Source of the DNA: Halovivax asiaticus JCM 14624
GTDB lineage: Archaea; Halobacteriota; Halobacteria; Halobacteriales; Natrialbaceae
Length of the DNA stretch: 64,000 bases
Direction: 5' to 3'
Assembly (NCBI RefSeq): GCF_000337515.1
Contig: NZ_AOIQ01000008.1
Location: 125,837 to 189,836, forward strand
Below the pieces are notes generated by a model. The model saw only the letters and a program-made list of their open reading frames with translations, made no database searches and was not told the DNA's origin. Shown piece after piece: positions 18,174-23,047 of this stretch (position 1 is the first letter of the stretch; the number at the start of each line of letters is the position of its first letter). The translations under genes were made by a program, and so were the position numbers.

Positions 18174-19361
18174 TCAGAGGTAGCCTGCGTCGACGAGTCG
18201 CTCGACGCCCTCGCGGAGGCGCTCCTCGCTGGCGGCGTAGGAGAGGCGAGCATAGCCGGGTGCGCCGAAGGCGCTGCCGGGGACGGTCGCGACGTGGGCG
18301 TCTTCGAGTGCGCCCTCACACCACTCGGTATCCGGTGACTCCACAGGTAGCATCATGTAGAACGCACCGTCCGGCGTCGGCACGTCGACACCCGCGTCGG
18401 CGAACAGGTCGAGCAGGAGGTCGCGTCGCTGCTCGAATGCGTCGACCATCTCGTCGACGGCCGTCTCGGTGTGTTCGAGCGCCTCGACGCCGGCGTGCTG
18501 GACGAAGTTGGTGGCACAGGAGACCGAGTGGCTGTGGAGTTTGCCCGCCTGGTCGATGAGCTCCTCCGGCCCGGCGAAGTAGCCCAGCCGCCAGCCGGTC
18601 ATCGAGTAGGCCTTCGAGAAACCGTTGACCGTCACGGTGCGCTCGGCCATCCCGTCGAGCGAGCCGAGGCTGGTCGGGTCGGTGTCGTAGGTGATCTCGC
18701 CGTAGATCTCGTCGGCGACGACGGTGACGTCGTGCTCGACGGCGAGGTCGCGGACGCCCTCCAGCGCGGCGTCGGTGTAGACGGCGCCCGTCGGGTTCGA
18801 CGGGGAGTTGACGATCAGCAGCTCCGTCGAGTCGCTGATCACGTTCTCGAGGTCGGGAAGGGCCGGTTCGAGGCGGAAGTCGTACGGCGAGAGATCGACG
18901 CGGACGAGTGAGCCGCCGGCGAGTTTCACCATCGCCTCGTAGGAGACCCACGCGGGGTCGAGCAGGACGACCTCGTCGCCAGCGCGGGACGACGTCCCGC
19001 GAGCAGACGGGCCCTGCCCGTCAGCGCCGTCGATGAGCGTCTGGGTGATCTCGTACAGCGACTGCTTGGCACCGGGGGTGACGATCACGTTCTCGGGACC
19101 GTAATTCAACCCGTCAGCCTGCAGTTTGTCGGCGATCGCTTCGCGGAGTTCGGGAATTCCGTTCGAGGTGGTGTAGCCGGTGTGGCCGGCGTCCATGGCA
19201 TCCTGGCCAGCCTCGACGACGTTCTCGGGCGTGGGGAAGTCGGGTTCGCCGACGCTCAGGTCGACGACGTCGGCGCCCTCGGCCTCGAGTTCGGAGGCGA
19301 GCGCCGAGATGGCGAGCGTTGCGGACGGTTCGACTCTCGTGACGCGATCTGCGTAGTGCAT
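18174..19361 (-). CDS. aspC: PLP-dependent aminotransferase (aspartate type)
   Basis: 395-residue fold-type I aminotransferase. Visible: DLSVGEPDFPTP, the YTTSNGIPELREAIA substrate region, NSPSNPTGAVY, ADEIYGEITYD, and the PLP lysine in VNGFSKAYSMTGWRLGYFAG. It should move amino groups between aspartate or other amino acids and 2-oxoglutarate. The ATG at 19361 gives the usual family start (MHYADRV) and is preferred to the ATG two codons upstream. Odd point: an extra stretch of about 15 residues (ADGQGPSARGTSSRA) interrupts a normally short loop before GDEVVLLDPAW, encoded by two tandem DNA hairpins. The reading frame stays open. Confidence 0.92.
   Translation of the reverse strand: MHYADRVTRVEPSATLAISALASELEAEGADVVDLSVGEPDFPTPENVVEAGQDAMDAGHTGYTTSNGIPELREAIADKLQADGLNYGPENVIVTPGAKQSLYEITQTLIDGADGQGPSARGTSSRAGDEVVLLDPAWVSYEAMVKLAGGSLVRVDLSPYDFRLEPALPDLENVISDSTELLIVNSPSNPTGAVYTDAALEGVRDLAVEHDVTVVADEIYGEITYDTDPTSLGSLDGMAERTVTVNGFSKAYSMTGWRLGYFAGPEELIDQAGKLHSHSVSCATNFVQHAGVEALEHTETAVDEMVDAFEQRRDLLLDLFADAGVDVPTPDGAFYMMLPVESPDTEWCEGALEDAHVATVPGSAFGAPGYARLSYAASEERLREGVERLVDAGYL
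18983..19022. repeat. twin-hairpin insertion inside aspC
   Basis: Two perfect short hairpins in tandem: CGCGGGAC-GAC-GTCCCGCG (18983-19001) and GACGGGC-CCT-GCCCGTC (19006-19022), separated by 4 bp. Together they encode the extra loop residues of the aminotransferase on the minus strand. The design (7-8 bp stem, 3-nt loop, twice) looks like a small palindromic mobile or REP-like element that inserted in frame. Confidence 0.75.
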
Positions 19362-19396
19362 GGGCATAGAGCTGGTGTGGTGGTTTCGTTCGGCTG

Positions 19397-19905: not shown

Positions 19906-22644
19906 TCAAGCCGGGTTCTTACCCGCCCGTTTGCACTTCTCGTACTCGCGTTTTGCGCGTTCGTAGGCGTGTCGCTTCTTTTTCAGTTGCTTCTTGTTCA
20001 CCTTCCCTTTCTCGTATTTCTTTTCGTACTTCTCGTACTCACGTTTCGCGCGCTCGTATTCGCGCTTTTTCTTCTTGCACTTCTTTCCGTCGTCAGGCGC
20101 CTTCGTAAACTCCAGAATGTCACCGTAGACGACCGTATCTTCCACCTGGGCGACCGCCCGGAACTCGTAGGTCGTGCCGGTCTCGAGATTGGTGGCCGTC
20201 GCGCTGAACGGTCCGGTTTGGGTGAGGACCTGCTCGTCGGTAAACGTCCACACCTCAGTTCCCTCGACGCGATACAGGAAGTAGACGGTCACTTCCTCCG
20301 CACCCTCGAGTTCGAGCAGTTCGCCGTTGAGCGTCGCGGTCGAGCCGTTGACCTCGGTTGCTGGCTTCGTTTCGACCGCTAGATCTTCCGGCGCCAGCTT
20401 GGTGAACGAGAGGGTGGCCCCGAGGAAGCGGTCGCCGTTCGCGACCATGACGGCCCGAAATTCGTACGTGGAACCGAGTTCGAGGCCCTCGATTCCGGCG
20501 CTGAAGTCGCCGGGTTCGTCGAGCGTCTGAGACTCGGTGGTTATCCACTCGTCCGCGCCGAGTTCGCGCCACTCGAAGAAGACGTCGACCGTCTCGAAGT
20601 CGCCGAGGTCGATCAACTCACCGTTGAGTACCGCCGTCGAGCCGTTGATCTCCGTCGCCGGCTGTGTCTCGACGCTAGGAACGCCGGCTTCAGCTTTGGT
20701 GAACGAGACGATAGTTCCTTCCTCGCGCGCGCCATTAGCCACGACGACTGCCCGGAATTCGTACGTGCTTCCGGGCTCTAAGCCCGCGATCTCGGCGTCG
20801 AAGTCGCCGGGCGCGTCGAGCGTCTGGGTCTCGGTCGCGGTCCATTCGTCCGTGCCGAGCTCGCGCCACTCGAAGAAGACGTCAACCGCGTCGTAGTCGC
20901 CGAGGTCGATCAACTCACCGTTGAGTACCGCCGTCGAGCCGTTGACCTCCGTGGCCATCTGGGTTTCGACGATGGGTGCACCGGGTTCGGCTTTGGTGAA
21001 CTCGATGATGGCCCCTTCGTCGCGCGTGCCATCGGTCACCGCGACCGCCCGGAATTCGTACGTACTGCCGGGCTCTAGGCCCTCGATTCCGGCGCTGAAG
21101 TCGCCGGGCGCGTCGAGCGTCTGCGTGTCGGTGGCGATCCACTCGTCCGTGCCGAGGTCGCGCCACTCGAAGAAGACGTCGACTGTGTCGTAGTCGCCGA
21201 GATCGAGCAGTTCGCCGTTCAGCGTCGCCGTCGAGCCGTTGACTTCTGTCGCCGGCGACGTAATGACCTGCGGGACGCCCGGCACCGTCTTGATGATCCG
21301 AAGCGTGGCCCCTTCGACCCGTTCGCCGTTCGCCAGCCCGACCGCCCGGAACTCGTACGTGTTGCCGGGTTCGAGGCCCTCGATTCCGGCGCTGAAGTCG
21401 CCGGGCGCGTCGAGCGTCTGCGTGTCGGTGGCGATCCACTCGTCCGTGCCGAGCTCGCGCCACTCGAAGAAGACATCGACCGTGTCGAAGTCCCCGAGAT
21501 CGGTCAACTCACCGTTGAGCGTCGCGGTCGAGCCGTTGACCTCCGTCGCCGGCGTCGTTACGACGTCGGGGATGGCTGCATCGCAACTAATGTCGAGCGT
21601 GGTGATATCGAGACCGATCGCGATATTGTCGGTCTCGAGCGAGTACGTTCCGTCCGCGAGCGCCCCCCACGTTGCCGACCCGCCGGCGGGAACCTCCATC
21701 GTCTCCTCGTACGCATCGGGACCAGTGACGGTCACCATCACCGAGACGTCGTTGGGGTTCGTTACCGTGATCTCCCCGTCCTCGTCGACGCAGGCCGCGT
21801 CCACTTGCAGGTCCACGAGATCGCAGTCGCATCCGGTAACCGTCGCCATCTGCAGATTGACGGCGGTCTGGGCGTACAAACAGCCGTCCACCGTCGCGTT
21901 GGTGAGCACGTTGATCGCCGTCTGGGCCAGGACGATCCCTGCGAAGTCCGCGTCCGTTCCGATCTCGACGCCGGGACCGCCGGCGACCACCCAGACGATG
22001 TTTTCGGGCTGCGCGCCCCCTTCCAGATTGATAGTCACCCCGCTCGCCACGCTGAGGCCGCCCGCGACCTGGAAGATCCAGGTGTCGTCTGGACCCCCGT
22101 CGAGGGTGATATCTCCGTCGATCGAGAGGCCGGTATCCCATTTGTACACGCCCGGAGTCAGTGTTTCTCCGTCAAGATTGCCGCCGCCTAAATTTGTAAA
22201 GTCCGGCGGGACGCGTCCGTACGCGTCGGTGAACGCGGATTCCATATCGCTTACGGCCGTAGTCAATCTGGACGGGGTCGGCTCCGAGTAATCGGCCGCG
22301 TACACCCGTCCGTCCACCTGCGTCGACGTCGAGTAGGCGCCAGTGGTTGAATCCAGCGTCAGATCGAATCCAGTGATGGCGGTCGACGCGATCGGACTGA
22401 CGCCGATATCCCCCGCGACGTCGGAATTGGGGACGCTGTCTATCCCCGATTTGGCCAGGATCGAAAAATCACAGGCTGTCCCGAGATCCACCGGTGCCGG
22501 GCCGTCTTGTTGGATCTGGACCTGGTTCGCGGGCGGGCCGCCTGTATCGCTTCCTTCCTGAGCGGCACCCAGACTACCGGCGAGACCAGCAGTGAGCAGC
22601 CCACTCGATATGACCACACGTCTTCTGGAGGGGGTGAGACCCAT
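19906..22644 (-). CDS. Tat-exported DUF3494 (ice-binding-like) surface protein with five repeats and a Lys-rich tail
   Basis: 912 residues. Residues 5-30 are a Tat signal (PSRRRVVISSGLLTAGLAGS). Residues about 50-275 form a DUF3494 beta-solenoid of the ice-binding/adhesin type (FSILAKSGIDSVPNSDVAGD; LTPGVYKWDTGLSIDGDITL; NIVWVVAGGPGVEIGTDADF). A short beta domain with two Cys follows (275-359). Residues 360-853 are five near-identical 99-residue fibronectin-like repeats, each with ATEVNGSTATLNGEL and DVFFEWRELGTDEW. The last 59 residues are extremely basic with two YERAKREYEK units. No PGF-CTERM or other membrane anchor is seen. Likely a cell-surface or matrix adhesin; the DUF3494 fold does not by itself prove ice binding. 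A TATA-like site 24 bp upstream fixes the ATG at 22644. Confidence 0.85.
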   Translation of the reverse strand: MGLTPSRRRVVISSGLLTAGLAGSLGAAQEGSDTGGPPANQVQIQQDGPAPVDLGTACDFSILAKSGIDSVPNSDVAGDIGVSPIASTAITGFDLTLDSTTGAYSTSTQVDGRVYAADYSEPTPSRLTTAVSDMESAFTDAYGRVPPDFTNLGGGNLDGETLTPGVYKWDTGLSIDGDITLDGGPDDTWIFQVAGGLSVASGVTINLEGGAQPENIVWVVAGGPGVEIGTDADFAGIVLAQTAINVLTNATVDGCLYAQTAVNLQMATVTGCDCDLVDLQVDAACVDEDGEITVTNPNDVSVMVTVTGPDAYEETMEVPAGGSATWGALADGTYSLETDNIAIGLDITTLDISCDAAIPDVVTTPATEVNGSTATLNGELTDLGDFDTVDVFFEWRELGTDEWIATDTQTLDAPGDFSAGIEGLEPGNTYEFRAVGLANGERVEGATLRIIKTVPGVPQVITSPATEVNGSTATLNGELLDLGDYDTVDVFFEWRDLGTDEWIATDTQTLDAPGDFSAGIEGLEPGSTYEFRAVAVTDGTRDEGAIIEFTKAEPGAPIVETQMATEVNGSTAVLNGELIDLGDYDAVDVFFEWRELGTDEWTATETQTLDAPGDFDAEIAGLEPGSTYEFRAVVVANGAREEGTIVSFTKAEAGVPSVETQPATEINGSTAVLNGELIDLGDFETVDVFFEWRELGADEWITTESQTLDEPGDFSAGIEGLELGSTYEFRAVMVANGDRFLGATLSFTKLAPEDLAVETKPATEVNGSTATLNGELLELEGAEEVTVYFLYRVEGTEVWTFTDEQVLTQTGPFSATATNLETGTTYEFRAVAQVEDTVVYGDILEFTKAPDDGKKCKKKKREYERAKREYEKYEKKYEKGKVNKKQLKKKRHAYERAKREYEKCKRAGKNPA
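19909..20085 (-). other. AAG-rich segment encoding the basic C-terminal tail
   Basis: This part of the DUF3494 gene encodes 59 residues with about 40 percent Lys or Arg, including the twice-repeated YERAKREYEK. Base composition is AT-richer than the rest of the gene and of the window. In a proteome where secreted proteins are acidic, this stands out. Confidence 0.85.
20086..21567 (-). repeat. five tandem 297-bp coding repeats
   Basis: Five 99-codon units in the DUF3494 gene. The phrase GAGCCGTTGA recurs at 297-bp steps (near 20344, 20641, 20938, 21235, 21532). Units 1-4 are very similar, and some blocks of more than 60 bp are identical between units, so recent duplication or gene conversion is likely. 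Unit 5 (nearest the C-terminus) is the most diverged. Confidence 0.9.
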
Positions 22645-23047
22645 ATCCGATGGCCACTGGTGCGTTATATTGTTAATGCCGAGTTGGCCCGATTGCACTT
22701 CATCATCGGTTTTCTAGCTATTTTTCGAATTTGTTCACTCCGTACATTCACCCGCTCGCGGCAATCAAACGGAGTCCGTAGTACGTGGTGATACAGCGTT
22801 ACGTGGATATTTCGCTGCGAGTAGTTCACTGACACATCGGGACGGGAGAGCGTCGAAACAGACGGCACGGGAGAGTCAGACGGACGATTCGGGAGGCTGT
22901 TTGAACACACGTACCACTCGTCCATCGTTCCGTACACGCCGTGCGACGCGTGGCAAGCGGTGAGAGCCGTGGGACGGTCGCCACGGGACCGTCCCGGTCC
23001 AAACCGAGTGAGAATTCTTAAGCGCCGACCGCCGAAACGGCCACCCA
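22645..23047. promoter_or_regulatory. divergent promoter region, DUF3494 gene and purK
   Basis: No gene is supported here. The left end has GTTATATTGTTAA (22664-22676), a TATA-like site for the leftward DUF3494 gene. The right end has TTCTTAAG (23015-23022), a TATA-like site about 29 bp before purK. The middle, around 22690-22800, is AT-richer than its surroundings and has an inverted pair ACTCCGT/ACGGAGT (22737-22743 and 22769-22775). Confidence 0.6.

Follow-up and report, generated by a model that had tools for sequence, protein, structure and literature searches.

The class I/II (aspartate-type) aminotransferase gene of Halovivax asiaticus, on the minus strand at 18174..19367 of the 64,000-nucleotide stretch of DNA analysed here (the window), contains a run of codons whose DNA folds back on itself twice, and this raises the question of how such a palindromic sequence came to lie inside a coding region. 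Most known examples of palindromic elements inserted in frame come from Rickettsia, Wolbachia and some REP-bearing bacteria. The host protein, 397 aa in length, was identified from its open reading frame, the Pfam domain Aminotran_1_2 (PF00155, E=6e-67) and PDB 1J32. About 15 extra residues and two tandem perfect hairpins had been claimed for this gene in a preliminary description. The extra residues number 15 (residues 115-129, ADGQGPSARGTSSRA) and have no counterpart in congeners or in 1J32, whose alignment shows a 15-residue gap exactly at the insert. The hairpins can be read directly on the minus strand: hairpin A (19006..19022) is GACGGGC-AGG-GCCCGTC with a 7-bp stem, hairpin B (18983..19001) is CGCGGGAC-GTC-GTCCCGCG with an 8-bp stem, both have 3-nt loops, and the linker between them is TGCT (19002..19005; TGCY in the family consensus). 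The length of 40 nt first given to the unit has to be corrected, as the insert comprises 45 nt or 15 codons (18981..19025) according to the comparison of filled and empty alleles and a leave-out covariance model. It lies between a GGC codon immediately upstream (Gly114, 19026..19028), where empty alleles almost all have GAC or GAG, and a GGC codon immediately downstream (Gly130, 18978..18980) that belongs to the original target site, so that the coding strand from 19028 to 18978 reads GGC GCT GAC GGG CAG GGC CCG TCT GCT CGC GGG ACG TCG TCC CGC GCT GGC. As single-stranded DNA the twin-hairpin insert folds with -20.7 kcal/mol (z=-4.4 against dinucleotide shuffles). In the AlphaFold model of the enzyme, residues 115-130 form the lowest-confidence stretch, located between a helix and a strand, which fits a flexible loop. 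Within the aminotransferase, the insert itself is probably functionless.

Comparison with orthologues confirms the predicted gap. The insert is absent from all four congeners and from 39 of 40 named haloarchaeal orthologues, which share a single fixed spacing of 31 aa; close orthologues are therefore empty and do not carry the same loop encoded by different DNA. The closest congener, G004 (97% protein identity), reads LVDDGDEVV where H. asiaticus reads LIDG-[15 aa]-GDEVV; at the DNA level, CTCGTCGAC GAC GGCGACGAG in the former corresponds to CTCATCGAC GGC-[45 nt]-GGCGACGAG in the latter. The 60-nt flanks of the two species match at 59 positions on either side of the insert, and no foreign or recombined patch was seen within them. 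The sole filled allele among the 40 named orthologues is that of Haloferacaceae archaeon XH8, which has +15 residues at the same site and a compensated stem (GACGAGC/GCTCGTC). In a tree of 52 aminotransferases, built with the insert columns removed, the 8 filled alleles require 8 changes, 7 of which are forced by well-supported branches. On this tree the site was hit independently at least seven times; precise loss of the filled state many times over is formally possible, but it requires many more events. Gly immediately precedes the insertion point in 8/8 filled alleles and in 1/43 empty ones, a regularity for which the mobile-element reading offers no explanation. Halalkalirubrum salinum has an empty allele with Gly-Gly (LIDGGDEVV) where the other empty alleles have Asp-Gly, possibly the scar left by an exact excision.

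With up to 3 mismatches allowed, the 40-mer occurs only once in the H. asiaticus genome, and an exact-repeat search alone would have ended the case wrongly, since diverged copies of the unit do occur elsewhere in that genome. When the insert peptide was used in tblastn, relatives were found in other genes and other genera. A covariance model (R1) built from 22 of these relatives, picked by peptide similarity and not by structure, matches 156 of 246 relatives and 54 of 73 genera; in its seeds 96% of cells are paired, and both sides of a pair have changed in 15 cells, compared with 4.6 in shuffles. A second model (R2) was built from one sequence per site at 39 sites, none of them the aminotransferase site, and it recovers the copy in the window at 18978-19025 with 67.5 bits (E=4.4e-14). 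It finds 2 to 32 copies in each of 10/10 named haloarchaea and none in 12 named non-haloarchaeal genomes used as a negative control. At the 39 sites 98.3% of cells are paired, a figure biased somewhat upward because members were chosen with the structural model, and both sides have changed in 95 cells but one side only in 3. The near absence of G-U states in these covarying stems points to a palindrome that acts at the DNA level. Self-complementary copies occur in at least 46 distinct places at unrelated loci. The unit thus has relatives across many genes and genomes; a complete lack of other copies would have refuted the idea of a mobile element. A short core pattern searched in the relatives gave matches mostly at chance level. 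Two strict patterns had no match in viral contigs; phages gave partial matches only, in a Gordonia phage, and these were taken as chance.

The consensus of the 46 distinct places is GTC-[NNCGGNC nnn GNCCGNN]-TGCY-[CGNGGGAC nnn GTCCCNCG]-CTGNC, and its ends (GTC..CT) are not inverted repeats of each other. In Halorubrum-type genomes, so labelled from the position of one of them (G131) in the aminotransferase tree and from the named Halorubrum trapanicum genome, the same architecture occurs as tandem arrays of 7-bp hairpin, TGCC, 8-bp hairpin and CTGTC with a period of 17+4+19+5=45 nt. The insert in the window equals exactly one array period, 15 codons. Several Halorubrum-type arrays form part of a longer dispersed repeat, whose flanks gcacgcgcgaggtc ... 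gaggctggggaggcgtgaggtg are conserved and which looks like a structured non-coding element of unassigned kind.

Most copies are found within genes. Among 119 copies with context, 109 are coding as judged by codon-position GC, and 106 of the 109 lie in frame 0 (83 sense and 23 antisense). As two genes recur across related genomes, not every copy is an independent event; the distinct sites number 24 sense and 15 antisense. The encoded peptides are VDGxxPSARGTxSxAG (sense) and DSEGRSPSSSRTQSGD (antisense). Stop codons do not explain the frame preference, because the four other reading frames of the unit are also mostly stop-free. Read in the orientation in use, the peptide is acidic (+0.84 and +0.87 per unit), whereas the opposite orientation would yield a basic or hydrophobic one (-2.68 and -1.93); we infer a filter acting on the peptide. 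Hosts include an S9 peptidase and phosphoenolpyruvate synthase (annotated ppsA in Haloterrigena turkmenica), and, from reading of the sequences, putatively also cobyrinate synthase, a large helicase and MetB-like enzymes. In the MetB-like genes of H. asiaticus and G004, the loop that bears the unit in other genera holds a different extra stretch (e.g. ASGDDASPSA), and this loop seems to be generally tolerant of insertions.

Three insertions in H. asiaticus, each of net +45 nt, have no counterpart in the four congeners: that in the aminotransferase and those at C10:26018 and C6:227068. The unit at C10:26018 lies antisense in a gene that is metallo-beta-lactamase-like by sequence, and its junction CTCGTC^GACGAC marks a clean 45-nt insertion without target duplication. 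The copy in the S9 peptidase is common to H. asiaticus, G001 and G004, and its stems are mismatched in the two latter. Between unrelated genes of different genera, units can match at 44/45 positions where the flanks share about 33% identity. Copies within one genome, however, are 68% alike, compared with 70% for random pairs from different sites, and similarity is higher at the same site (AspC 0.82, S9 0.81, CbiA 0.93) than among different sites of one genome (0.69). Such dissimilarity within genomes and clustering by site speak against the mobile-element reading, at least as simple copy-and-paste inside each genome, which does not predict them; it seems that the source pool is shared between species, or that filled alleles have also been spread by recombination. 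The target context in the aminotransferase, CTCGTCG..CGACGAG, had prompted the idea of a preference for palindromic (hairpin-loop) target DNA, which found no support at coding sites (mean stem 3.65 there and 3.51 at control positions).

Taken on this comparative evidence, the insert is probably one copy of a non-autonomous palindromic element that lies scattered in genomes across the haloarchaea. A mobile palindrome like the Rickettsia palindromic elements (RPEs) had been proposed for it, and the analogy gains support, as far as sequence comparison can give it, because it predicts dispersed, in-frame palindromic insertions that are polymorphic for presence and absence. The proposal of a REP- or RPE-like mobile element is supported as to kind, though not in the expectation of near-identical repeats, for the copies are diverged and their architecture is conserved more than their sequence. 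One 45-nt unit, GTC-[7-bp hairpin]-TGCY-[8-bp hairpin]-CT, would insert without target duplication, usually where two codons meet as GNC^GNC. It may move as a single-stranded DNA hairpin, since changes in the stems are compensated pairwise and G-U states are nearly absent, and the nuclease or transposase would be supplied in trans or brought in with foreign DNA. Insertions would survive where the 15-residue peptide is hydrophilic, acidic and placed in a loop, so that the gene stays functional. Once fixed at a site, the unit may be passed on further by homologous recombination between haloarchaea. It is possible, though we hesitate to call it likely, that a modular hairpin pair of fixed size draws on a gene pool common to the haloarchaeal species and travels among the loops of unrelated proteins and of TnpB omega-RNAs. 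The mechanism would copy or perfect hairpins in single-stranded DNA and would need no known transposase.

Recombination could also carry the main part of the explanation, if every site received its unit in a single ancient event, short-tract homologous recombination of the host gene then spread the filled allele between haloarchaea and the unit is hardly mobile today. In its favour, copies sharing a site resemble each other more than do copies from different sites in one genome, third-codon positions are more conserved in the insert than in the flanks at S9, Lhr and CbiA, and the very conserved stretch just downstream of the aminotransferase site would favour recombination. We nevertheless consider it unlikely: the flanks shared by H. 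asiaticus and G004 (59/60 on each side) contain no foreign patch, the two other H. asiaticus insertions are at sites filled in no other copy fetched, and the aminotransferase copy of the Halorubrum group (G131) is closer to CbiA copies than to other aminotransferase copies.

The hairpins might instead be selected as RNA elements, for mRNA stability or translation pausing, and kept for function at each site. Pairing is indeed kept at orthologous sites (94-98% Watson-Crick), and synonymous positions are more conserved in the insert than in the flanks at most sites. Selection on RNA is hard to reconcile with the near lack of G-U intermediates, the use of both orientations, the functionally unrelated host genes and the mismatched stems of some copies (G001 and G004 at the S9 site); with a Halorubrum-type array as query, Rfam returned no match above threshold. 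This explanation is accordingly held to be quite improbable. Under the explanation by chance, codon bias in GC-rich DNA gave rise to two neighbouring palindromes within an unremarkable loop specific to the lineage. This explanation could appeal to the lack of a near-identical second copy in the H. asiaticus genome and to single 17-nt hairpins of this kind, which are no more frequent in the window than chance predicts if 3 mismatches are tolerated. Its probability is negligible, since it is refuted by the covariation under R2 (95 against 3 cells), the E-value of 4.4e-14 obtained with the leave-out model and the specificity of 10/10 haloarchaea against 0/12 others, and the identical 45-nt architecture recurs in unrelated genes, RNAs and arrays.

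The view of a stand-alone in-frame element holds for the coding insert but is too narrow, as the same architecture is found also in tandem arrays and in TnpB omega-RNA loops. Several non-coding copies are located about 200-300 bp downstream of a TnpB zinc-ribbon domain on the same strand, within the context CCCCGTC-[unit]-TTCAC-GACGGGGAGGATGTCA. At other TnpB right ends a similar stem is closed by a simple tetraloop, TTCA or TGAA, and no unit is present. We read these cases as insertions of the unit into the terminal loop of the TnpB omega-RNA, equivalent at the RNA level to those in protein loops; descent may also have run in reverse, with the unit released from the TnpB right end. Another conserved non-coding context, gaatagccagtcgtc ... 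gacgcccgctgtatg, was encountered at four loci in four genera, and in G192 it lies directly downstream of a TnpB domain. No Y1 transposase (PF01797) was found in H. asiaticus or in four other unit carriers (G064, G226, G131 and G202), and a RAYT/IS200 link was rejected for want of correlation with PF01797.

Among known systems, RPE-4 and RPE-6 have been equated with CGTC REPs, whose loops measure 4-5 nt and stems 8-9 bp, which end in a CGTC tag and are mostly head-to-head dimers (PMC3733652). Like these, the haloarchaeal unit is a short dispersed palindrome, in some cases within coding sequence where it adds residues, often paired as a dimer and without a dedicated transposase, and as in RPEs its in-frame insertions are present or absent among close relatives. 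Unlike them, it belongs to another domain of life and the majority of copies examined are coding; with 3-nt loops, 7-bp and 8-bp stems and GTC/TGCY/CTGNC linkers, it also falls outside the definition of CGTC REPs. GTAG REPs (REP/RAYT) are likewise palindromes able to cluster, but neither H. asiaticus nor several other carriers have a RAYT-like Y1 transposase, and the consensus has no GTAG tag. In the parts of PMC3119063 consulted, Haloquadratum walsbyi is described as harbouring SMRs (SMR-A, SMR-B) of about 80-110 bp with terminal inverted repeats, and PATEs, whose near-terminal palindromes are linked or homologous to IS605 ends. Both resemble the unit, as far as that text goes, in being haloarchaeal, transposase-free and without target duplication, PATEs also in being palindromic, and the insertion of SMR-A into near-terminal palindromes of IS605-type elements recalls the unit in the terminal loop of TnpB right ends. 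The unit differs from SMRs as characterised there in its 45 nt and in ends that are not inverted repeats, and those parts of PMC3119063 report no in-frame coding insertion for PATEs or SMRs. Some IS200/IS605 right ends, with their TnpB omega-RNA, have a clear family member in the terminal loop, whereas others have the plain tetraloop, and the coding copies occur without the remainder of the IS end. Two groups of nearly identical repeats in H. walsbyi J07HQW1 have a twin hairpin whose linker is GCC; one group resembles a section of a transposon-related coding sequence, and the repeats are possibly IS605/PATE relatives of the unit.

No description of an archaeal in-frame palindromic family was found in the open-access literature searched by topic terms and peptide motifs, and the haloarchaeal twin-hairpin family is apparently undescribed. 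A class-wide archaeal family would show selfish hairpins repeatedly adding peptides to housekeeping proteins outside bacteria. The filled and empty pairs, together with repeated hits at one enzyme site, would provide a system for studying what mobilises transposase-free palindromes and how proteins gain loops. In annotation, some lineage-specific loops of haloarchaeal proteins and some length variation of omega-RNAs would be recognised as inserted units.

Near the aminotransferase gene, the window also encodes on the minus strand (19906-22698) a secreted-looking protein of 930 aa with an ice-binding-like domain and repeated Fn3-like domains. Its C-terminal tail is strongly lysine-rich, which is unusual in an acidic haloarchaeal proteome.
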